Positions 19,710 through 36,394 of a stretch of 51,681 bases of DNA are shown one piece after another. The stretch's first letter is position 1, and every line of letters begins with the position of its first letter. The translations under genes were made by a program, and so were the position numbers. The stretch covers positions 119,152 through 170,832 of the IMG/VR virus record IMGVR_UViG_3300047392_000113. One strand, 5' to 3'. The DNA comes from a virus. Under the pieces are notes generated by a model. The model was given only the letters and a program-made list of their open reading frames with translations, was not told the DNA's origin and searched no databases.

Positions 19710-19791
19710 TATGAAAACACATTCTAAAACATAAAGATTTAGGATCATCAAGGGATACTTTCAGCACATCCCCGAGTGTGTTTCTATATGG
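19707..19791 (+). ncRNA. Structured spacer RNA between tRNA-Lys and tRNA-His
   Basis: CCATAT (beginning with the tRNA CCA) pairs with ATATGG, continuing through AAACACA/TGTGTTT; inside, GGGAT/ATCCC closes a loop containing TTTCAGCAC. It contains TTTAGGAT and TTCAGCA words like the recurrent pseudoknot, but the partner GTTG is absent. Confidence 0.4.
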
Positions 19792-19796
19792 TTTAT

Positions 19797-19871
19797 GGAG
19801 TTGTTAGTTTAGTGGCAAAACCACGGGTTGTGATTCCGTTATCACGAGTTCGATTCTCGTACGACTCCCCA
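19797..19871 (+). tRNA. tRNA-His(GTG)
   Basis: Includes the extra 5' G(-1) opposite C73, the tRNA-His identity pair. Acceptor GAGTTGT/ACGACTC, anticodon loop TTGTGAT, T-arm ACGAG-TTCGATT-CTCGT, CCA encoded. Confidence 0.93.
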
Positions 19872-20203: not shown

Positions 20204-20272
20204 TTTAGGATTCTTTCAGCAAATTTAAAATTCAAACTTATATCTTGAAAAGAAAGCGAATCCTGTTGTTTT
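20204..20272 (+). ncRNA. Recurrent pseudoknot RNA, copy 1
   Basis: Helix 1 AGGATTC (20207-20213) with GAATCCT (20258-20264); loop CAGC (20217-20220) can pair with GTTG (20265-20268) directly after helix 1. Inner hairpin TTCAA/TTGAA. It lies 6 nt after one tRNA and 6 nt before the next, so it should be released with free ends by tRNA processing. Confidence 0.65.
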
Positions 20273-21146: not shown

Positions 21147-21220
21147 TTTTAGGAAGGGTTCAGCAAATAAAAAAGCTAAACTTTTTGGTTGTCTAGCGAC
21201 AAAAACCTTCCTGTTGTATT
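21147..21220 (+). ncRNA. Recurrent pseudoknot RNA, copy 2
   Basis: Helix 1 AGGAAGG (21151-21157) with CCTTCCT (21206-21212); CAGC (21161-21164) and GTTG (21213-21216). Inner hairpin GCTA/TAGC. Five nt after the preceding CCA and 8 nt before tRNA-Arg. Confidence 0.65.
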
Positions 21221-21393: not shown

Positions 21394-21510
21394 TTTTAGG
21401 TTAGGTTCTGCAAAAATAAAATTAGCTGGTTCGATTCCAGCATTATCCACCAAAACTCGAAAGAGACTCGGATGATGTGCCACGGTGGCAATCAAACTAA
21501 CCTGTTGTTT
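21394..21510 (+). ncRNA. Recurrent pseudoknot RNA, copy 3, enclosing a permuted tRNA-like domain
   Basis: Helix 1 AGGTTAG (21398-21404) with CTAACCT (21497-21503); CTGC (21408-21411) faces GTTG (21504-21507) with one mismatch. The loop holds a T-arm (CTGG-TTCGATT-CCAG), then CATTATCC-ACCA, an 18-nt linker with CTC-GAAA-GAG, then GGATGATG, which pairs with CATTATCC over 8 bp, followed by a D-arm-like GCCA/TGGC. The order T-arm, 3' acceptor, linker, 5' acceptor, D-arm is a circularly permuted tRNA lacking an anticodon arm. Confidence 0.6.
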
Positions 21511-21700: not shown

Positions 21701-21703
21701 GAA

Positions 21704-21851
21704 TTTAGAGATAGACGATGTGATGAGTCCCTTGTGCGCTAGTGCCCTATTCTTGAGCATGACACACCAGTAGCAACACAAGGTAGTTTAAACTCTCACA
21801 ATCGAGACAACTCCGACGAGTCCTTGAGAAAGATAGTTGGAACTCTCTAAA
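21704..21851 (+). ncRNA. Closed structured RNA before the phosphoesterase gene
   Basis: TTTAGAGA (21704-21711) pairs with TCTCTAAA (21844-21851). Inside, CCTTGTG/CACAAGG plus GCTA/TAGC form one arm and ACTC-CGAC-GAGT another. It may also act as the leader of the downstream gene. Confidence 0.45.
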
Positions 21852-21878
21852 CCTTTTTATTATTTTATGGAGAAACTT

Positions 21879-24480: not shown

Positions 24481-24555
24481 TTTTAGGATATTTGCAGCAA
24501 ACAAAAAAGCATTCAACTTGTAATTGAAAAACGCAAAAAGATATCCTGTTGTATT
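24481..24555 (+). ncRNA. Recurrent pseudoknot RNA, copy 4
   Basis: Helix 1 AGGATAT (24485-24491) with ATATCCT (24541-24547); CAGC (24495-24498) and GTTG (24548-24551). Inner hairpin TTCAA/TTGAA as in copy 1. Five nt after the upstream CCA and 6 nt before tRNA-Thr. Confidence 0.65.
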
Positions 24556-26203: not shown

Positions 26204-26278
26204 GCGTTTGAAGCTCGATGGATGAGTAGGCGATTCTAAACCGCTGTGTAGCAGGTTCGATTCCTGTCAGACGCACCA
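26204..26278 (+). tRNA. Amber suppressor tRNA (anticodon CTA)
   Basis: Acceptor GCGTTTG/CAGACGC, D-arm GCTC/GAGT, variable loop GTGTA, T-arm GCAGG-TTCGATT-CCTGT, A plus CCA. Counting from both sides places TTCTAAA as the anticodon loop, so positions 34-36 are CTA, which reads UAG. The anticodon stem closes with an A-C mismatch, as in the array's tRNA-Cys. The charged amino acid is unknown. Confidence 0.85.
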
Positions 26279-26392
26279 ATGACTTATTTTATGAAAGGAC
26301 ATGCTATGGAGAAACTCTCAGCATAGATTCGACCACCGTAAGAATTCTCTTTGATTAATGTATTCATTTATTTTAAACAAGGAGAATTACAA

Positions 26393-26758
26393 ATGTGTAT
26401 CGAACTAAAAATTAAAGCAAAACATCTAGCCCTCGAGCCTAAAATTATTAAGCATGAGGAGCGAAAACTAAAGGGACAAATTAAGTACACGAAAGGTACT
26501 GATGCTAACCTGATCTATAAATTAAATGATCTGGTTAACCATCGTAAATGGAATGTGCGAAATGAATCTCGAGCCACTGAACTAGCAAGAGCATATCTCG
26601 CTGGTAAACCATACAGTTATGTGGAGAAGAAACGTAAGGATGACGTAATGTTCCAACTTTACATTGTTCCTCGTATCGTCTCTATGGTTACAAAGTACGG
26701 TAAAGGTGCGCAAAGAAAGATTGATGCTACTGTCATTAAAGAGTGGTCAAAACTCTAA
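26393..26758 (+). CDS. Small basic phage protein of unknown function
   Basis: The protein is 121 aa. A strong AAGGAG precedes ATG 26393; the in-frame extension back to 26351 lacks one. Lys-rich helical N-terminus (E-L-K-I-K-A-K-H-L-A) and a middle L-V-N-H-R-K-W-N-V-R-N-E-S-R segment suggest nucleic acid or ribosome contact. Ends just before a strong terminator. Not recognised. Confidence 0.7.
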   Translation: MCIELKIKAKHLALEPKIIKHEERKLKGQIKYTKGTDANLIYKLNDLVNHRKWNVRNESRATELARAYLAGKPYSYVEKKRKDDVMFQLYIVPRIVSMVTKYGKGAQRKIDATVIKEWSKL

Positions 26759-29901: not shown

Positions 29902-30251
29902 ATACTTTATGGAATAAAATCAAAGGAAAACTAAATGTCAAATTCACCAGAAGAAATTCAAGATCCGTCAGAACAACAACCGCAACCACAACCTACTATT
30001 CAACAGCTGATGAATTCTACATTGGAGTCTCTAGTGAGAAACCAGTTACAGTCTATCTACCAGCAGCTGCAGCAGATGGAAAAATCATTGTCGTCAAAGC
30101 AGAAATGAGACCACCACTTGGTAGTCGCAAAGTAAATATTGCAACAACAGATGGATCCAAAATAGATGGTTACAGTGATGCGTCAATTAATGTTTCTCAT
30201 GGTTATATTACTTTGATCCGTAATAACAACGAGTGGTATATCATAGGTTGA
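29898..30251 (+). CDS. Virion-type beta-domain protein, paralogue 4
   Basis: The protein is 117 aa from ATG 29898 (overlapping the previous TGA). A basic leader (K-F-T-R-R-N-S-R-S-V-R) precedes the shared domain: Y-S-T-A-D-E-F-Y-I-G-V, V-T-V-Y-L-P, I-V-V-K-A, K-I-D-G-Y and N-N-E-W-Y-I-I-G. The first half is overlapped in another frame by the frame at 29935. Confidence 0.72.
   Translation: MNTLWNKIKGKLNVKFTRRNSRSVRTTTATTTYYSTADEFYIGVSSEKPVTVYLPAAAADGKIIVVKAEMRPPLGSRKVNIATTDGSKIDGYSDASINVSHGYITLIRNNNEWYIIG
29935..30108 (+). CDS. Nested overlapping gene, Gln-rich 57-aa protein
   Basis: ATG 29935 has AAAGGA about 8 nt upstream and reads a 57-residue helical Gln-rich peptide starting MSNSPEEIQDPSEQQPQPQP and ending S-L-S-S-K-Q-K. 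It lies wholly within paralogue 4 in another frame. Composition is natural for a phage protein, and the host frame is supported by homology to its paralogues, so both frames look used. Confidence 0.5.
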   Translation: MSNSPEEIQDPSEQQPQPQPTIQQLMNSTLESLVRNQLQSIYQQLQQMEKSLSSKQK

Positions 30252-30338
30252 CGTTATTATAATTATCTGGTAAGATACTTCTCGTATTGATAATGATTTC
30301 AATACTTAATAGGAATATCCAATGACATAAGGAATATA

Positions 30339-30563
30339 ATGTGTTTTGAAAATCTACTTAAACAACATAACGATCTAAATCGACAACTAGCTGAAGAAGT
30401 TAGTAAGGACACTCAGAATCTAAAAGATTTGGCTGAGAATATGGCAGAATGCGCCACGAATATCCAAGGACAAGGATATGCAAGTTTTATTGCTTCACGT
30501 GAAAATTTTTTATCTGAATTGGAGAAATTTAGACGATGTTGGACAGATTTTCTTTATAAATAA
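30339..30563 (+). CDS. Small helical protein of unknown function
   Basis: The protein is 74 aa, three Cys, helical (N-L-L-K-Q-H-N-D-L-N-R-Q-L). AAGGAATATA precedes ATG 30339. Ends before three tandem hairpins, the last being a terminator. Unknown. Confidence 0.6.
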   Translation: MCFENLLKQHNDLNRQLAEEVSKDTQNLKDLAENMAECATNIQGQGYASFIASRENFLSELEKFRRCWTDFLYK

Positions 30564-30567
30564 AAGA

Positions 30568-30629
30568 CCTGACTTCCGTCAGGACTCCACCGAAAGGTGT
30601 TCGAGCAGTGCTAGTCACTGCTCTTTTTT
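30568..30629 (+). terminator. Tandem hairpins ending in a Rho-independent terminator
   Basis: CCTGAC-TTCC-GTCAGG, then CACC-GAAA-GGTG, then GAGCAGTG (30603-30610) with CACTGCTC (30616-30623) followed by TTTTTT. Insulates the RNA pair at 30.69-31.19 kb. Confidence 0.88.
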
Positions 30630-30653
30630 CCCTAAAATTTCTTGAAATAAGTG

Positions 30654-30682
30654 TTGACTTGTAAGAAGTTTTGATGTATAAT
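30654..30682 (+). promoter_or_regulatory. Sigma70-type promoter for the large structured RNA
   Basis: TTGACT (30654-30659), 17-bp spacer, TATAAT (30677-30682). Predicted start near 30689, 6 nt before helix 1 of the RNA. Confidence 0.88.
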
Positions 30683-30689
30683 AATGTTT

Positions 30690-30980
30690 GTGTTGGGATG
30701 AATTCAGCAGTTCAAAAACTACTGACTTAAGAGTAGCCCACTACAGGAGGAAACATCGTAAGGTGTCAATTTTGTGGGCTAGGTTGGTAAAGACTATTGC
30801 ATGCTCTTATGCCTTGTGACCCCTATTAGGAGTCAGATAGTTACGCCCGAATGCGTACCTAGTGCCTGTCACACAGGATAAGCCGATGAGAATTCGGATG
30901 ATTTTTCGTGGGGTTCACCTTGACAGGGGCACGATGTTTTCAAGTAAAACTACTCGATTAGCCCGATCATCCCGTTGACT
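30690..30980 (+). ncRNA. Large structured RNA with the recurrent pseudoknot ends (copy 6)
   Basis: Helix 1 GGGATGA (30695-30701) with TCATCCC (30967-30973): the outer A-U pair of other copies is G-C here, a compensatory change. CAGC (30705-30708) faces GTTG (30974-30977). The 265-nt interior holds hairpins TAGCCCAC/GTGGGCTA (with ACATC-GTAA-GGTGT), GACTAT/ATAGTT, TGAC/GTCA, CCTGT/ACAGG, TCGTG/CACGA and GTTTT/AAAAC. No substantial open frame. Directly upstream of the Ro60-like gene. Confidence 0.7.
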
Positions 30981-31003
30981 TGCAATTATATTTGATGTAT
31001 AAT
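30975..31003 (+). promoter_or_regulatory. Sigma70-type promoter for the second RNA and the Ro60-like gene
   Basis: TTGACT (30975-30980), 17-bp spacer, TATAAT (30998-31003). The -35 overlaps the GTTG of the upstream RNA. Start near 31010, again 6 nt before helix 1. Confidence 0.88.
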
Positions 31004-31009
31004 TGTGTT

Positions 31010-31194
31010 TTAGTTAGGATAGGTTCAGCAAACAATTTATTTGGTGGCTCCATGCCACCACTTAGAACTGAAAGAACTGTGATAACTACTGGAGCCTGTA
31101 TGGGCTTTGAAGGTGGTTATCGTGTGACGGTTCTCTCAAGGTGAGTTTCGATTTCTCACTGGAAACAAAAAGAAGGAAACTATCCTGTTGTTTT
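31010..31194 (+). ncRNA. Structured RNA with the recurrent pseudoknot ends (copy 5), leader of the Ro60-like gene
   Basis: Helix 1 AGGATAG (31016-31022) with CTATCCT (31180-31186); CAGC (31026-31029) and GTTG (31187-31190). Inside: GGTGGC/GCCACC, AGAACT/GGTTCT enclosing a 9-bp GATAACTAC / GTGGTTATC arm, and GTGAG/CTCAC. It ends about 43 nt before the start codon, so it could be a processed RNA, a cis-regulatory leader, or both. Confidence 0.7.
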
Positions 31195-31236
31195 GATTTA
31201 GGCTTTTATTGCCTGTTATTTGTAAAGGAGTGTCAT

Positions 31237-32673
31237 ATGAACACTTTCGTTTCTGCGGTTCAAAATCAATCCACTCGTACTACTAATGGTATGGTGGCTC
31301 GCAAGTCTACTGCATCTGCATGCGTAGACCTGTTTTTCAAAATCGGTGCTTCACGTGGTAAAGACATCACTAAGGACTTTGTTGCTGCTTATGTAGAAAA
31401 CAAAGACATCGCATTGCGTATCGCCCAATGGGTTCGTGATGCTCGTGGTGGTGCTGGCGAACGTGAATTGTTCCGTCAAATTCTTGCTTACTTGGATAAG
31501 CATGACCCAGATGCAGCTGCACAGCTGTTGATGAAGGTTCCAGAGATCGGTCGTTGGGATGACATCTTTGTCGTGAAGAACGACAAGCTGAAGTTCCAAG
31601 CATTCTCTATGCTGGGCGATGCCCTGCGTGCAAAGAATGGTCTGGCTGCTAAGTGGACTCCACGTAAGGGTGAGTTGGCTGTTGAAATTCGTAATTTCTT
31701 CGGTATGACTCCAAAGTTCTATCGTAAGTCTCTTGTTGAATTGACTAAGGTCGTTGAACAAGAAATGTGCGCTAAGAACTGGGATGAAATCAACTTCTCT
31801 CACGTACCTTCTGTGGCACATGCTCGTTATAAGAAGGCATTTTTCCGTAACACTCAAGAGTACGCTAAGTACGTTGCAGAGTTGGTCAAGGATCCTAAGG
31901 ATCGCACTATCCAAGTGAAGATCAACGCTGGTGCTGTGTACCCATATGATGTGTTGAAGGGTGTTATCGGTGCTTACAGCAAGAACTACAACTCTACTGA
32001 GTTGGGTGCGTTGCAAGCACAATGGGACGCTATGGAAAATTTCATCGGTGACGCTAACGTGTTGCCATTGGTGGACGTTTCTGGTTCCATGACTTGTAAG
32101 GCTGGTGGTGTGAAGTCTACTTCACAAACTACTTGCTTGGATGTTGCAGTTTCTCTTGGTCTGTACTGTGCAGACAAGAACAAGGGTAAGTTCAAGGATA
32201 CGTTCTTGACTTTCTCTGGTTCTCCAGAACTGTTGCACCTAAAGGGTGACATCGTTAAGAAGGTACAACAAATGGTAACTTCTAACTGGGGTATGAATAC
32301 TGACTTGATCAAGGCGATGGACAAGATCCTTCGTGTTGCCAAGGAAGGTAACGTACCACAAGAAGAAATGCCAGAAGTTCTTCTGATCATGTCAGACATG
32401 CAGTTTGATGCTTGCGCTCGTTTCGATGACTCAGCAATGAAGATGATCGAACGCAAGTTCACTGACGCTGGATACGATCTCCCAAAGATCGTGTTCTGGA
32501 ACTTGAATGCGCACGACAACGTGCCAGTCAAGTATGACACTCGTGGCGTAGCCCTTGTGTCTGGTTTCTCGCCAGCCATCATGGTATCCGTACTTGGTGG
32601 CGACACTGATAACTTCACCCCAGAAGCTATCATGTTGAAGGCGGTTATGTCTGATCGTTACAACCTAGTCTAA
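31237..32673 (+). CDS. Ro60/TROVE-like RNA-binding protein with vWA domain (DUF2828-type)
   Basis: The protein is 478 aa. The N-terminal 270 residues are helical repeats with W-V-R-D-A-R-G-G-A-G-E-R-E-L-F near 66-79 and G-R-W-D-D near 105, typical of TROVE/DUF2828 proteins. A vWA domain follows with the MIDAS D-V-S-G-S near 280-284 and a later S-D-M-Q-F-D. Ro60 proteins bind the ends of misfolded RNAs in their ring and Y RNAs on the outside. ATG 31237 has AAAGGAG upstream; a longer in-frame start at 31141 would fall inside the leader RNA. Two structured RNAs and a tRNA array nearby fit an RNA-binding role. Confidence 0.85.
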   Translation: MNTFVSAVQNQSTRTTNGMVARKSTASACVDLFFKIGASRGKDITKDFVAAYVENKDIALRIAQWVRDARGGAGERELFRQILAYLDKHDPDAAAQLLMKVPEIGRWDDIFVVKNDKLKFQAFSMLGDALRAKNGLAAKWTPRKGELAVEIRNFFGMTPKFYRKSLVELTKVVEQEMCAKNWDEINFSHVPSVAHARYKKAFFRNTQEYAKYVAELVKDPKDRTIQVKINAGAVYPYDVLKGVIGAYSKNYNSTELGALQAQWDAMENFIGDANVLPLVDVSGSMTCKAGGVKSTSQTTCLDVAVSLGLYCADKNKGKFKDTFLTFSGSPELLHLKGDIVKKVQQMVTSNWGMNTDLIKAMDKILRVAKEGNVPQEEMPEVLLIMSDMQFDACARFDDSAMKMIERKFTDAGYDLPKIVFWNLNAHDNVPVKYDTRGVALVSGFSPAIMVSVLGGDTDNFTPEAIMLKAVMSDRYNLV

Positions 32674-32810
32674 CTAGGACGGGACGCATTGACTGGTGTG
32701 CGTAATCACCAGTCACTATAATGAAGCACATTGCTGAAGTTGGTTCAGTTAGACAGGGAGATCCAATTGCCCATGTCGTTAGTGTGTTTCATTATGGTAT
32801 AAATACATAT

Positions 32811-33545
32811 ATGAAAACATACAGTGTAGAAAAGTTCGACAATATAATAGATGAAGACCTCCAGTGGAGAGTCTGGGACTATATTCAAAACCAGACATTC
32901 CACGCAACTAGGAAAAATGTATCATATCCTAAAGTTGGATCTGTAATCTACTATAAACCTATCGATAATAAAAAAGAGTATCTTGACGACTCTGTTCCTT
33001 CTGTGAACAACCAGTATATGCACAGATGCGTGTTTGGTATGCGTGGTGAAGGGCATCCAGTCATATTAGAACTCTGGGAGCAGATCAATTCCCACTTTGG
33101 AAATAAATTTTTTATTGATGGGGATGTAGAAGGTATAGCTGACCCCAATCTAAAACCTAACTATTCTATGTGCTATGTGAATGCGCAACCAGAAGAAACG
33201 ATCAAACGTTCTCACGGTATTCATAGAGATACAATTGATCTTCAAGAAGAAACACACTATACGTTATTGTATATTGCCAATCCAACTTGGTATCCTACTT
33301 GGATGGGTGAGAATATCTTTTATTCTGATGATGAAACCACTGGTGACAAACAGCAATTTCAAAGAGGTTATGGTCAATCAAGAGGATTTGGTGTTGGAGA
33401 ACCATTTGAAATTATTTCTCCAAAACCTGGAAGAGTTATTCTTTATGATGGTAGAACATTACACACTACTAGACCAGTAGCACCATGGGCGGACAAGATG
33501 CGTTATGCTGTAGTGTTCAGAATACGAAAACGTAGAGATAAATAA
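32811..33545 (+). CDS. 2OG-Fe(II) oxygenase, prolyl-hydroxylase-like
   Basis: The protein is 244 aa from ATG 32811; the frame is open to ATG 32721, neither with a good ribosome binding site, and TATAAATA at 32798 lies between them. S-H-G-I-H-R-D-T gives the H-x-D iron ligands, Y-D-G-R-T-L-H-T-T-R-P the distal His and the 2-oxoglutarate Arg near the end. First gene of the 32.7-42 kb metabolic cluster. Substrate unknown. Confidence 0.78.
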   Translation: MKTYSVEKFDNIIDEDLQWRVWDYIQNQTFHATRKNVSYPKVGSVIYYKPIDNKKEYLDDSVPSVNNQYMHRCVFGMRGEGHPVILELWEQINSHFGNKFFIDGDVEGIADPNLKPNYSMCYVNAQPEETIKRSHGIHRDTIDLQEETHYTLLYIANPTWYPTWMGENIFYSDDETTGDKQQFQRGYGQSRGFGVGEPFEIISPKPGRVILYDGRTLHTTRPVAPWADKMRYAVVFRIRKRRDK

Positions 33546-33551
33546 AAATAT

Positions 33552-33627
33552 GCGGGTATAGCTCAGTTGGTAGAGCACTTCCTTGCCAAGGAAGATGTCG
33601 AGAGTTCGAGTCTCTTTGCCCGCTCCA
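33552..33627 (+). tRNA. tRNA-Gly(GCC)
   Basis: Isolated from the main array. Acceptor GCGGGTA/TGCCCGC, canonical D-arm, anticodon loop TTGCCAA in CTTCC/GGAAG, T-arm GAGAG-TTCGAGT-CTCTT, discriminator T, CCA encoded. Confidence 0.95.
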
Positions 33628-33667
33628 AACATTATGGTACATAATAGTAAAATAAATAATGGCGATC

Positions 33668-33707
33668 AACACACGATTCATAAAACGGATCGTGTGTTTT
33701 CTTTTTT
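33668..33707 (+). terminator. Rho-independent terminator
   Basis: AACACACGAT (33668-33677) pairs with ATCGTGTGTT (33689-33698), then TTCTTTTTT. Separates the Ro60/oxygenase/tRNA-Gly unit from the next operon. Confidence 0.9.
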
Positions 33708-33722
33708 GTACAATCGAATGTG

Positions 33723-34229
33723 ATGTTCTTCCAAATATTAAACTTACCACCATTCCCAGAAAAGTATATCAAAGAAGCATACACTGCGAAATATACGCAG
33801 ATGTATAGTCCAGATCAACTGCGTGCATTCTCTTCATTTAACAATACAAAATTTGTTAAGATGATGCAAGATAAATTCGGTGTTCGTGGTGGGTTGTATA
33901 TGAAGAACACACCAATGTCTTATTACGACTGGCATACTGATATGGGGAGACAATGTTCGTTGAACTGGCTTCTTCAGAATAACTGTGGTAAAGCGTTCTA
34001 TAGAGAAAATATCAATTCATCAGCTGGTTCTAAATCCATAACATATAATCTAACGAAGATTGATTACACTTTATACAAACCAACTTTGCTTAATGTGACT
34101 AAAGAACACTGCGTTATAAATGATACTACAGAAGATAGAATCATATTCAGTATGAGTATTGATGTACCTTTCGAAGAAGTTCTCCAATATCTTTCTACTA
34201 CGGTAATTGATGATTATGAATCTTGCTAA
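33723..34229 (+). CDS. 2OG-oxygenase-like small phage protein
   Basis: The protein is 168 aa (GTG 33720 is an alternative start). Y-D-W-H-T-D near residue 60 supplies an H-x-D pair followed by C-S-L-N-W-L-L; a later E-H-C-V-I-N and R-I-I-F-S-M near 145 could supply the distal His and Arg. Reduced compared with standard oxygenases; a phage-specific branch is likely. Overlaps the ligase gene by 14 bp. Confidence 0.6.
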   Translation: MFFQILNLPPFPEKYIKEAYTAKYTQMYSPDQLRAFSSFNNTKFVKMMQDKFGVRGGLYMKNTPMSYYDWHTDMGRQCSLNWLLQNNCGKAFYRENINSSAGSKSITYNLTKIDYTLYKPTLLNVTKEHCVINDTTEDRIIFSMSIDVPFEEVLQYLSTTVIDDYESC

Positions 34230-35655
34230 CGTTATCGACAAAAAACTAGCAAATAGTCTGTTTCTGATATGTGTTGATAAAGATGGCGTATCAAAGAAGT
34301 ATACCTACATAAATTTAGATGAACATTCTAGCTGGTTTGCTCGTTCTCTTTTAAAGAGAGGATTGGTGCAGGGTGATTCTATTGCTATCTTATCAAACAA
34401 CAGTTTCGAATATGCTGTCGCTTATTATGGTGCTCTTAAAGCTGGCATCGTTGCTGTGCTCGTCAATAACAAAATGAGCAGCACAGAGATTGAGTATGTG
34501 CTCACTGATAGTGGCTCTAAGATTCTATTTTCTGAAGATGAAAGACAATTCAGCATACCAACAATCAAGATGAATGAGTTAGAACTTTTCTACGATGTAG
34601 GAGAGTTCGATACTCTCCAGCTGGAAAGTTCAGCACATGCGGTCTGCATGTATACATCGGGTTCAACTGGTATTCCAAAGGGTGTTGTTTACTCTCATGG
34701 TCAGCATTATTGGTCTATTGATAGACACTCACAGGAAGAAAATCCTGTAGATAAATTCAGAAAAGTTAAGACTCTAATCATCACACCACTATATCATCTT
34801 AATGGATTGGCTGGTTTTGAGATTCAGATAAAGAAAGGTAACGTGATCGTTACATTGTCTAAGTTTGATTCTTCGATTGCTCTTAAAGCGATAGAAGAAC
34901 ATAAGGTTAATGTTATTGCAACTATCACAACCACGATGGCTCTGGTGGCTAACAATCCAGCTGTAGTTAATACAGATGTTAGTTCTGTTAAATCTATCCG
35001 CATCGGTAGTTCTATCACGACAGAATCCACAATCAATAAAATAAAGAAACATTTTCCACGTGCATCAATCTTAATCACATATGGAACTACTGAAACTGGT
35101 CCAGGGATGTTTGGGCAACACCCACAAAAGAAAAAATCTCCATTAACGAGTGTTGGGTATCCACTAAAGGGTATCGAGTATAGGATCGTTGATGGTGTTC
35201 TGCAGATTAAGACGCCATCCATTATGGCAGACTATAAAAATAAGAAAGAGTTATTCGACAGCAGATTCACCGAAGATGGTTTCTATATAACTGGTGACTT
35301 ATTTGAAGTAGATGCAGATGGATTCTACTACTGTTTGGGTAGATCAGACGAGATGTTTAAGTCTGGTGGTAATATCGTATACCCATCTGAGATAGAAAAC
35401 TTATTAGAGTCGCATCCACAAATATCGATGGCTGCTGTTATTGCAGTTGAAGATGAGTTGAAACAATTCCTACCTGTGGCATTCGTGGTTGCAGATGGAT
35501 TAACTGAACAAGATGTCAAGAACTATATACTATCTAAGACCGCTGCATATAAGCACCCACGTAAGGTTATCTTCCTTGAAACGATGCCTACTATCGGTAG
35601 TGGTAAAATTGATAAAGTGAAACTCAAACAACATTATAAGGAACATTATGTTTGA
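34216..35655 (+). CDS. Acyl-adenylating ligase (acyl-CoA synthetase-like)
   Basis: The protein is 479 aa. ANL-superfamily cores are intact: Y-T-S-G-S-T-G-I-P-K-G near 147-157 (phosphate loop), Y-G-T-T-E-T-G near 290, Y-I-T-G-D near 355, G-R-S-D-E-M-F-K-S-G-G hinge near 370 and the C-terminal lysine in G-S-G-K-I-D-K. It activates a carboxylic acid as acyl-AMP and then probably loads CoA or a carrier. No carrier protein is visible. ATG 34216 or 34210. Confidence 0.9.
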   Translation: MNLANVIDKKLANSLFLICVDKDGVSKKYTYINLDEHSSWFARSLLKRGLVQGDSIAILSNNSFEYAVAYYGALKAGIVAVLVNNKMSSTEIEYVLTDSGSKILFSEDERQFSIPTIKMNELELFYDVGEFDTLQLESSAHAVCMYTSGSTGIPKGVVYSHGQHYWSIDRHSQEENPVDKFRKVKTLIITPLYHLNGLAGFEIQIKKGNVIVTLSKFDSSIALKAIEEHKVNVIATITTTMALVANNPAVVNTDVSSVKSIRIGSSITTESTINKIKKHFPRASILITYGTTETGPGMFGQHPQKKKSPLTSVGYPLKGIEYRIVDGVLQIKTPSIMADYKNKKELFDSRFTEDGFYITGDLFEVDADGFYYCLGRSDEMFKSGGNIVYPSEIENLLESHPQISMAAVIAVEDELKQFLPVAFVVADGLTEQDVKNYILSKTAAYKHPRKVIFLETMPTIGSGKIDKVKLKQHYKEHYV

Positions 35656-36394
35656 ACAGCTACATTCTTTAATTGGGCAGACAGTCGTTATTACTGGAGC
35701 GAATGGAGCAATCGCCAGAGCAGCAGCAAAACGTCTTCGTGGTCTTGGTGCCAATATAACTGGAATCGCAAGAACAGATAGCGAAGAAGTCAGAAAGTTT
35801 TATGCATCTGAAGAAGTCGAGGGTACACTGTTTATCGCAGATGTTACGGATACCGATTTAATACAACAAATTGTGTCTAAAATTACACAATGTGATATCT
35901 TGATCAACAACGCTGGTTGGACTAAAGCAGTACCACACCACGACCTAGCTGGTTTATCTGATGATGACATCGATAAAATGTTAAACGTGAATCTTAAATC
36001 AGTCTACACTACCACAAGAGCATTCCTACCTCTGCTACGCCAGAGCAACTACGGAACGATCATTAACATCTCCTCTGCTTCTGCCAATGGAGCAGGATAT
36101 GGTAGCAATGTTATGTATTCAGCAACCAAGTCTGCTATCAATTCACTAACAAAGGATTGGGCGAGAGCATTGGCACCGAAGGTTCGTGTTCTTTCTATTT
36201 CACCACCTCTTGTTATGGATTCTGACTTTTCTGGTTGGAGCAGAGATGATAAAATCAAACGTGGAATGAAACTACCTCTGAAGAGAGGATCCAACACAGA
36301 AGATATCGCCAACGCCATCGAAGCATATCTAACTAAAATCCGATTTGCCACTGGCGTTGATGTTATCGTCGATGGTGGGAGAAATTTACAATGA
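35648..36394 (+). CDS. Short-chain dehydrogenase/reductase (FabG-like)
   Basis: The protein is 248 aa. NAD(P) motif T-G-A-N-G-A-I-A near residue 16, N-N-A-G-W near 91, S-S-A-S-A near 139 and catalytic Y-S-A-T-K near 153 define a classical SDR. Probably reduces a 3-oxoacyl group or similar. Overlaps the ligase by 8 bp and the BKACE gene by 4 bp. Confidence 0.92.
   Translation: MFEQLHSLIGQTVVITGANGAIARAAAKRLRGLGANITGIARTDSEEVRKFYASEEVEGTLFIADVTDTDLIQQIVSKITQCDILINNAGWTKAVPHHDLAGLSDDDIDKMLNVNLKSVYTTTRAFLPLLRQSNYGTIINISSASANGAGYGSNVMYSATKSAINSLTKDWARALAPKVRVLSISPPLVMDSDFSGWSRDDKIKRGMKLPLKRGSNTEDIANAIEAYLTKIRFATGVDVIVDGGRNLQ

Follow-up and report, generated by a model that had tools for sequence, protein, structure and literature searches.

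What are the two structured RNAs that precede a Ro60-like gene in this viral DNA, and what might the protein have to do with them? The stretch analysed here (the window) comprises 51,681 nucleotides (nt) of the virus record IMGVR_UViG_3300047392_000113 in IMG/VR, positions 119,152 to 170,832, and the gene, at 31237-32673 on the plus strand, encodes a 478-residue protein with DUF2828 and DUF7788 domains (Pfam; PHROG 850). The two RNAs belong to a family defined by one shared end, and the linkage of this family to the gene, its co-occurrence with it, the covariation of its terminal helix, the tRNA-like modules in some members and the Ro60 fold of the protein together lead us to consider the RNAs Y-RNA-like and probable, if still putative, ligands of the phage Ro-like protein. 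We give a probability of a little over three in four to the reading that the protein binds their ends while their interiors act as docks.

The original prediction described RNAs of about 285 and 180 nt, each behind its own strong promoter, starting 6 nt after the expected transcription start and sharing a terminal helix, CAGC in the loop and GTTG after the helix, and all of these points held. RNA1 (30695-30977, plus strand) consists of 279 nt (30695-30973) plus GTTG, and RNA2 (31016-31190, plus strand) of 171 nt (31016-31186) plus GTTG. Their promoters, both TTGACT-17-TATAAT on the plus strand (30654-30682 and 30975-31003), are 11/12 sigma-70-like matches, the only two of that quality within 30000-33700; if transcription is assumed to start 7 nt past the -10 box, both RNAs begin 6 nt beyond that start. 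Each opens with seven perfect terminal pairs, three bases and CAGC, and has GTTG immediately 3' of the helix, which is GGGATGA/TCATCCC followed by CAGCA in RNA1 and AGGATAG/CTATCCT with CAGCAA in RNA2. Both fold more stably than shuffled sequence (z-scores of -2.6 for RNA1 and -4.2 for RNA2). RNA1, for which homologues are known, has a large branched interior in which 18 of 53 predicted pairs show compensated changes, while RNA2 carries a T-arm-like hairpin, GTGAG-TTTCGATTT-CTCAC, and a GAG-TTTCGA-CTC hairpin is conserved among RNA2-type elements. Because the GTTG of RNA1 is part of the -35 box of the RNA2 promoter, which overlaps it, and no terminator lies between the end of RNA1 and that promoter, the RNA ends are probably set by processing.

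Some simpler identities were set aside. A search of Rfam gave no matches to group I or II introns, GOLLD, ROOL or other known RNAs. A pseudoknot between CAGC and GTTG found no support, because the two do not vary together: GTTG also accompanies CCGC and CTGC, CAGC can stand with GTTA or GTTT, and some elements lack GTTG; in RNA1, moreover, the partner of the CAG is a CTG close by. Direct comparison with named phages found DNA similarity to the RNA region only at chance level.

The gene at 31237 had been called a TROVE/DUF2828-type gene with a von Willebrand factor A (vWA) domain, and here the DUF2828 assignment, the vWA domain and the relationship to Ro60 stood, while a Pfam match to TROVE did not. 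The profile matches above cut-off are DUF7788 (6e-47), DUF2828 (1e-23) and PHROG 850, 'RNA-binding protein' (1e-139); Pfam gives only DUF2828, DUF7788 and a weak VWA_2, with no sequence match to the TROVE model PF05731. An AlphaFold2 model of the protein (mean local confidence, pLDDT, 78.5; predicted template-modelling score, pTM, 0.76) was compared with the PDB by Foldseek, and ranks 1 to 9 were all Ro60, Rsr or TROVE structures (E 7e-9 to 9e-6), including Xenopus Ro with RNA, Deinococcus radiodurans Rsr and the Ro60 of Thermus phage phiLo. The metal ion-dependent adhesion site (MIDAS) motif of the vWA domain, D280-V-S-G-S284 (32074-32088, plus strand), is invariant in 24 homologues, with D280, S282 and S284 of the DxSxS signature unchanged. 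On this modelling the DUF2828/DUF7788 protein has a Ro60-like fold, a predicted ring of helical repeats joined to a vWA domain, and is a relative of Ro60, in humans an autoantigen. The gene is present in 677 of 50,697 phage records, where it is mostly annotated as hypothetical.

The shared end of the RNAs can be recognized well beyond this window. A pattern consisting of a helix starting with RG, three bases, CAGC and the exact partner strand occurs 188 times in the 80 loci scanned, against 2.6 times in shuffled sequence, and is followed on its 3' side by GTTG 98 times and by GTTA 44 times. Over 514 elements with 96 different helices the consensus is R-G-R-W-T-N-N, N-T-N, C-A-G-C-A-A ... G-T-T; in other words, a 7-bp helix whose 5' strand is followed by 2-3 nt and a near-invariant CAGCAA and whose 3' strand closes the element. 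In an alignment of 50 sequences from phages of many hosts, all seven helix pairs show double changes and 95.9% of cells are paired, a share that falls to 30-44% with the partner slid. Since the rows of that alignment were partly chosen by pairing, cleaner evidence comes from elements selected independently of it, where only AGG...CAGCAA and a downstream CCTGTTG were required and four inner positions were left free: all four form pairs in 114 of 116 elements (0-1 with a slid partner), through 27 different inner sequences. The terminal 7-bp helix is thus maintained by compensatory change, with near perfect covariation.

The elements keep close company with the gene. In a sample of 67 loci that carry it (the window and 66 viral contigs), 65 have at least one element on the gene's own strand in the 1 kb preceding it, none has one on the opposite strand, and one has an element inside the gene. 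Between the last upstream element and the start codon there is a median of 43 nt, and at least 16 nt, and a -10-like site stands just 5' of 47 of 65 long upstream elements, compared with a background of 13%. Named phages with only 31-48% identity in the protein have elements as well. They are Synechococcus BUCT-ZZ01, Citrobacter Ci1, Cronobacter S13, Stenotrophomonas DLP_6, the Felix-type UAB_Phi87, Listeria AG20, KVP40, Aeh1 and Ochrobactrum OC, together with Campylobacter PC14, Enterococcus PEF1 and Bacillus BcoS-136, where the elements precede the gene, and Mycobacterium MiniMac, Staphylococcus SEP9 and Klebsiella KP13-16, where they follow it. The hosts of motif-bearing phages span many phyla and include Listeria, Bacillus, Enterococcus, Staphylococcus, Campylobacter, Mycobacterium, Vibrio and enterobacteria. 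In clostridial, Endomicrobium and spirochaete metagenome contigs, which may themselves be viral, two to four tandem copies adjoin the gene (chance expectation 0.85 per 10 kb). Among relatives from Akkermansia (L399, L405-L408) no convincing elements were seen, and an opposite-direction pattern match inside a Felix-type Ro gene (W10:5097) was dropped for want of a partner strand.

A covariance-model search across phages had been proposed with the original prediction, which was staked in advance on the fold co-occurring with DUF2828 genes. Such a model (R1), run on whole records with a cut-off of E<=1e-3, found elements in all nine named Ro-like-positive phages outside its training set (W04-W09, W13, W14 and W20; W04 is close to a phage used in training) and in four of the seven contigs that a tRNA pattern had picked and that carry the Ro-like gene (G042, G044, G045 and G049). 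It matched none of 16 Ro-like-negative contigs drawn in the same way, nor T4 or T5. The held-out total is therefore 13 of 16 positive against 0 of 18 negative records (exact test about 6e-7, ignoring relatedness), which, with the 65 of 67 loci above, leaves the predicted co-occurrence unrefuted. In the reverse direction, 18 of 23 contigs picked by RNA pattern carry the gene, and the five that do not are fragments of 43-108 kb with one to seven elements each.

One might suppose instead that the elements are cis-regulatory leaders, through which the protein would control the translation of its own mRNA by binding it, with the copies in tRNA arrays acting as decoys or titrators. The short distance from the last upstream element to the start codon would suit such a role, as would a 40-nt minimal element in Stenotrophomonas DLP_6 (L082:2938-2977): its 3' strand, TCAATCT, continues straight into the GGAG ahead of the Ro-like start codon, and for this reason the arrangement suggests autoregulation. 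We think this explanation unlikely, however, since elements in the Mycobacterium, Staphylococcus and Klebsiella phages sit downstream of the gene, and long branched and tRNA-like interiors exceed what an operator needs.

The interiors are of several types: short hairpin, large branched, acceptor-less cloverleaf and permuted tRNA. Short elements (about 46-70 nt) have an A-rich loop and a weak hairpin. The T-arm sequence GGTTCRA is found in 111 of 145 medium elements and in 2 of 249 short ones. By inspection, medium elements fall into a class of acceptor-less cloverleaves (D-arm, anticodon-like arm, T-arm) and a class of permuted tRNAs (T-arm, capped acceptor strands, D-arm), some of the latter with an anticodon arm 5' of the T-arm. 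Both occur side by side in Bacillus BcoS-136, where two adjoining elements (L092:905-1030 and 1104-1229) have the identical helix AAGACACT/AGTGTCTT; one encloses an acceptor-less cloverleaf and the other, which has a promoter of its own, a permuted tRNA. The cloverleaves have 7-nt anticodon-like loops with varied triplets, TCT being the most frequent (11 of 34). These features, and a similar proposal for YrlA (PMC7790460), raise the thought that the tRNA-like members, stabilized by the Ro-like protein, act as decoys against host anticodon nucleases or other defences aimed at tRNA. We consider this somewhat more doubtful than the leader explanation: the majority of members are not tRNA-like, the anticodon-like triplets vary, and a Salmonella nuclease did not cut YrlA (PMC7790460).

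The permuted tRNAs invite comparison with YrlA (RF02553), the partner of bacterial Rsr. In both cases the RNA is encoded beside a Ro60-family protein, its ends pair into a stem and its interior is modular, and a subset of the phage RNAs has the T-arm, capped acceptor and D-arm in the order seen in YrlA. Rfam YrlA matches inside elements reach E-values of 9e-8, 8e-5, 3e-4 and 6e-3, all below cut-off (best score 47.8 bits, against a gathering score of 69), and there is none in the window. The phage RNAs differ in being present in several copies per genome, dispersed in tRNA arrays, in including acceptor-less cloverleaf and non-tRNA interiors, and in having a DUF2828/DUF7788 partner rather than one of PF05731. 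They also end in a helix with CAGCAA, where the Rfam model of YrlA has the Ro-binding end GGCGAAUG...CUUGUCGCC. Because neither that end nor the gathering score is reached, we keep the phage RNAs apart from YrlA. Shared ancestry with canonical Y RNAs at the protein-binding end was also rejected, as L411, the one canonical TROVE locus at which the YrlA model matches, lacks the motif.

Several observations weigh against the Y-RNA-like assignment. The published Ro-binding end of YrlA is absent from the RNAs, whose consensus is RGRWTNN-NTN-CAGCAA/...GTT; the Ro60 fold match is moderate (TM 0.48-0.59); and three Ro-like-positive contigs (G039, G040 and G050) have no R1 match at the cut-off, one element being detected by the scan in G039 nonetheless. 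The fourth comes from Listeria phage CKA15, which also supplies an argument in favour: ahead of its Rsr-like homologue, at distances of up to 2 kb, lie three non-coding regions that are among the most transcribed of the genome and have sigma-A-like promoters and no intrinsic terminators. The authors of that study left the identity of these RNAs undecided, naming Y RNAs as one option among others and describing no motif (PMC12282133). CKA15 is more than 99% identical to AG20, which has motif elements at L091:2664-2926. The only CKA15 region given with coordinates, 26,236-26,727, would correspond to about L091:1487-1978 if the numbering is shared; it lies outside those elements and apparently lacks the motif, so the reported transcription is no direct proof for the motif RNAs. 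In AG20 a non-coding stretch of about 500 nt behind a TTGACA promoter (L091:1460-2030), apparently the most transcribed region of CKA15, has ends that pair as GAAATTTG/CAAATTTC without CAGCAA and is a different large RNA.

Within the window the count of two RNAs stood, but four further copies of the shared end had been overlooked, all of them on the plus strand between tRNA genes, making at least six small structured RNAs in all. Three are short: AGGATTC/GAATCCT at 20207-20268, between tRNA-Met and tRNA-Glu; AGGAAGG/CCTTCCT at 21151-21216, 5' of tRNA-Arg; and AGGATAT/ATATCCT at 24485-24551, between tRNA-Met and tRNA-Thr. The fourth, a medium element with a CTGC variant (AGGTTAG/CTAACCT, 21398-21507), lies between tRNA-Tyr and tRNA-Ser and, judged by eye, holds a tRNA-like module made up of a T-arm GCTGGTTCGATTCCAGC, a capped acceptor-like stem ATTATCC-ACCA...GGATGAT with ACCA in the cap and a D-arm-like hairpin; it has no YrlA match. 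Delimited without their last four bases, the copies span 20207-20264, 21151-21212, 24485-24547 and 21398-21503. RNA1 and the short copies have no module of the YrlA order. The suggested tie to the tRNA array is borne out by these copies and by the many elements that enclose tRNA-like modules.

Such positions could also mean that the elements serve to process or space the tRNA-array transcript, being cleaved by RNase P, RNase E or a phage nuclease, and have nothing specific to do with the Ro-like protein; many copies do lie directly between the CCA end of one tRNA and the next tRNA. We regard this as quite unlikely, however, since tRNA-rich phages without the gene, including T4 and T5, lack the elements, many genomes have them beside the Ro-like gene rather than beside tRNAs, often with their own promoters, and the tRNA-like interiors would be left unexplained. 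It is very improbable that the elements work as DNA instead, either as attC-like sites of single-strand recombination or as mobile palindromes: head-to-tail arrays with conserved ends around variable contents exist (L048), but the elements are always on the coding strand (opposite strand 0/67), have their own promoters and show RNA covariation and tRNA folds inside.

If the RNAs are Y-RNA-like partners of the phage protein, the following scheme seems reasonable. They would be transcribed from their own promoters or within the tRNA-array transcript, with ends produced by processing, and the Ro-like ring would bind and protect the common end. Each interior might then tether or gate a different partner, by analogy with the bacterial Rsr-YrlA-PNPase complex (PMC8394870), and tRNA-like interiors might recruit enzymes that normally act on tRNA. 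The resulting ribonucleoprotein could survey, degrade or shield tRNA and other structured RNA during infection, and elements just ahead of the start codon may permit the protein to autoregulate its synthesis. More tentatively, and with odds that we place below even, the DUF2828-type Ro and its CAGCAA-ended RNAs could be an ancient, near-universal module of large phages (at least 670 by protein count), whose swappable interiors, permuted tRNAs and acceptor-less cloverleaves among them, program the ring against tRNA-directed defences or for RNA turnover, and which is perhaps carried in the virion. The Rsr-like protein of CKA15 was detected in purified virions (PMC12282133).

That the RNA accompanies the protein in nearly all of the distant phages examined indicates a widespread, uncatalogued viral RNA-protein machine, in which one protein would be paired with many swappable RNA modules, several of them mimicking tRNA in at least two topologies. 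Such RNAs are absent from Rfam and were previously read as blank spacers between tRNAs. Reportedly, Chen et al. in 2014 noted likely Y RNAs near Ro60 in more than 250 bacteria and phages. Our search of Rfam and the literature did not find the end motif, the multiple copies in tRNA arrays, the acceptor-less cloverleaf class or the link to DUF2828, with overlap with Chen et al. possible. The motif and covariance model now predict putative ligands genome by genome, and as these include tractable phages (Felix O1 types, KVP40, Listeria P100-like phages and cluster L mycobacteriophages), the role of Ro60 and Y RNAs in bacteria and phages becomes directly testable.

Two other phage systems bear comparison. 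The Ro60 of Thermus phage phiLo (PDB 9l5y) is likewise a phage-encoded Ro60 fold and among the best fold matches, but by sequence it does not match the DUF2828-type profile significantly. T4 rnaC and rnaD are stable non-coding RNAs of a phage tRNA array whose role was long obscure, and rnaC (L425:4909-5047) folds well (z -4.6) and ends in a T-arm-like 3' hairpin; both lack the terminal CAGCAA motif, T4 has no Ro-like gene, and we rejected them as members of the family. Synechococcus BUCT-ZZ01 also has a permuted tmRNA at L080:737-1137 (RF04321, E 3.5e-21).

A few minor features of the window remain. A near-miss to the motif (GGGATACTTTCAGCACATCCCC) lies between tRNA-Lys and tRNA-His at 19740-19797, without a partner strand. 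At 21703-21858, past tRNA-Ser and ahead of a reading frame resembling a phosphoesterase, TTTAGAGA ... TCTCTAAA flank about 150 nt; the stretch lacks CAGC and may be a different RNA or a degenerate one. The tRNA with a CUA anticodon at 26204-26278 is labelled tRNA-Pyl by ARAGORN; given its place in a phage array, it is more likely an amber suppressor tRNA. Finally, adjoining AMP-ligase-like (34207-35655) and FabG/SDR-like (35648-36394) genes, identified by PHROG matches, are unusual metabolic cargo for a phage.
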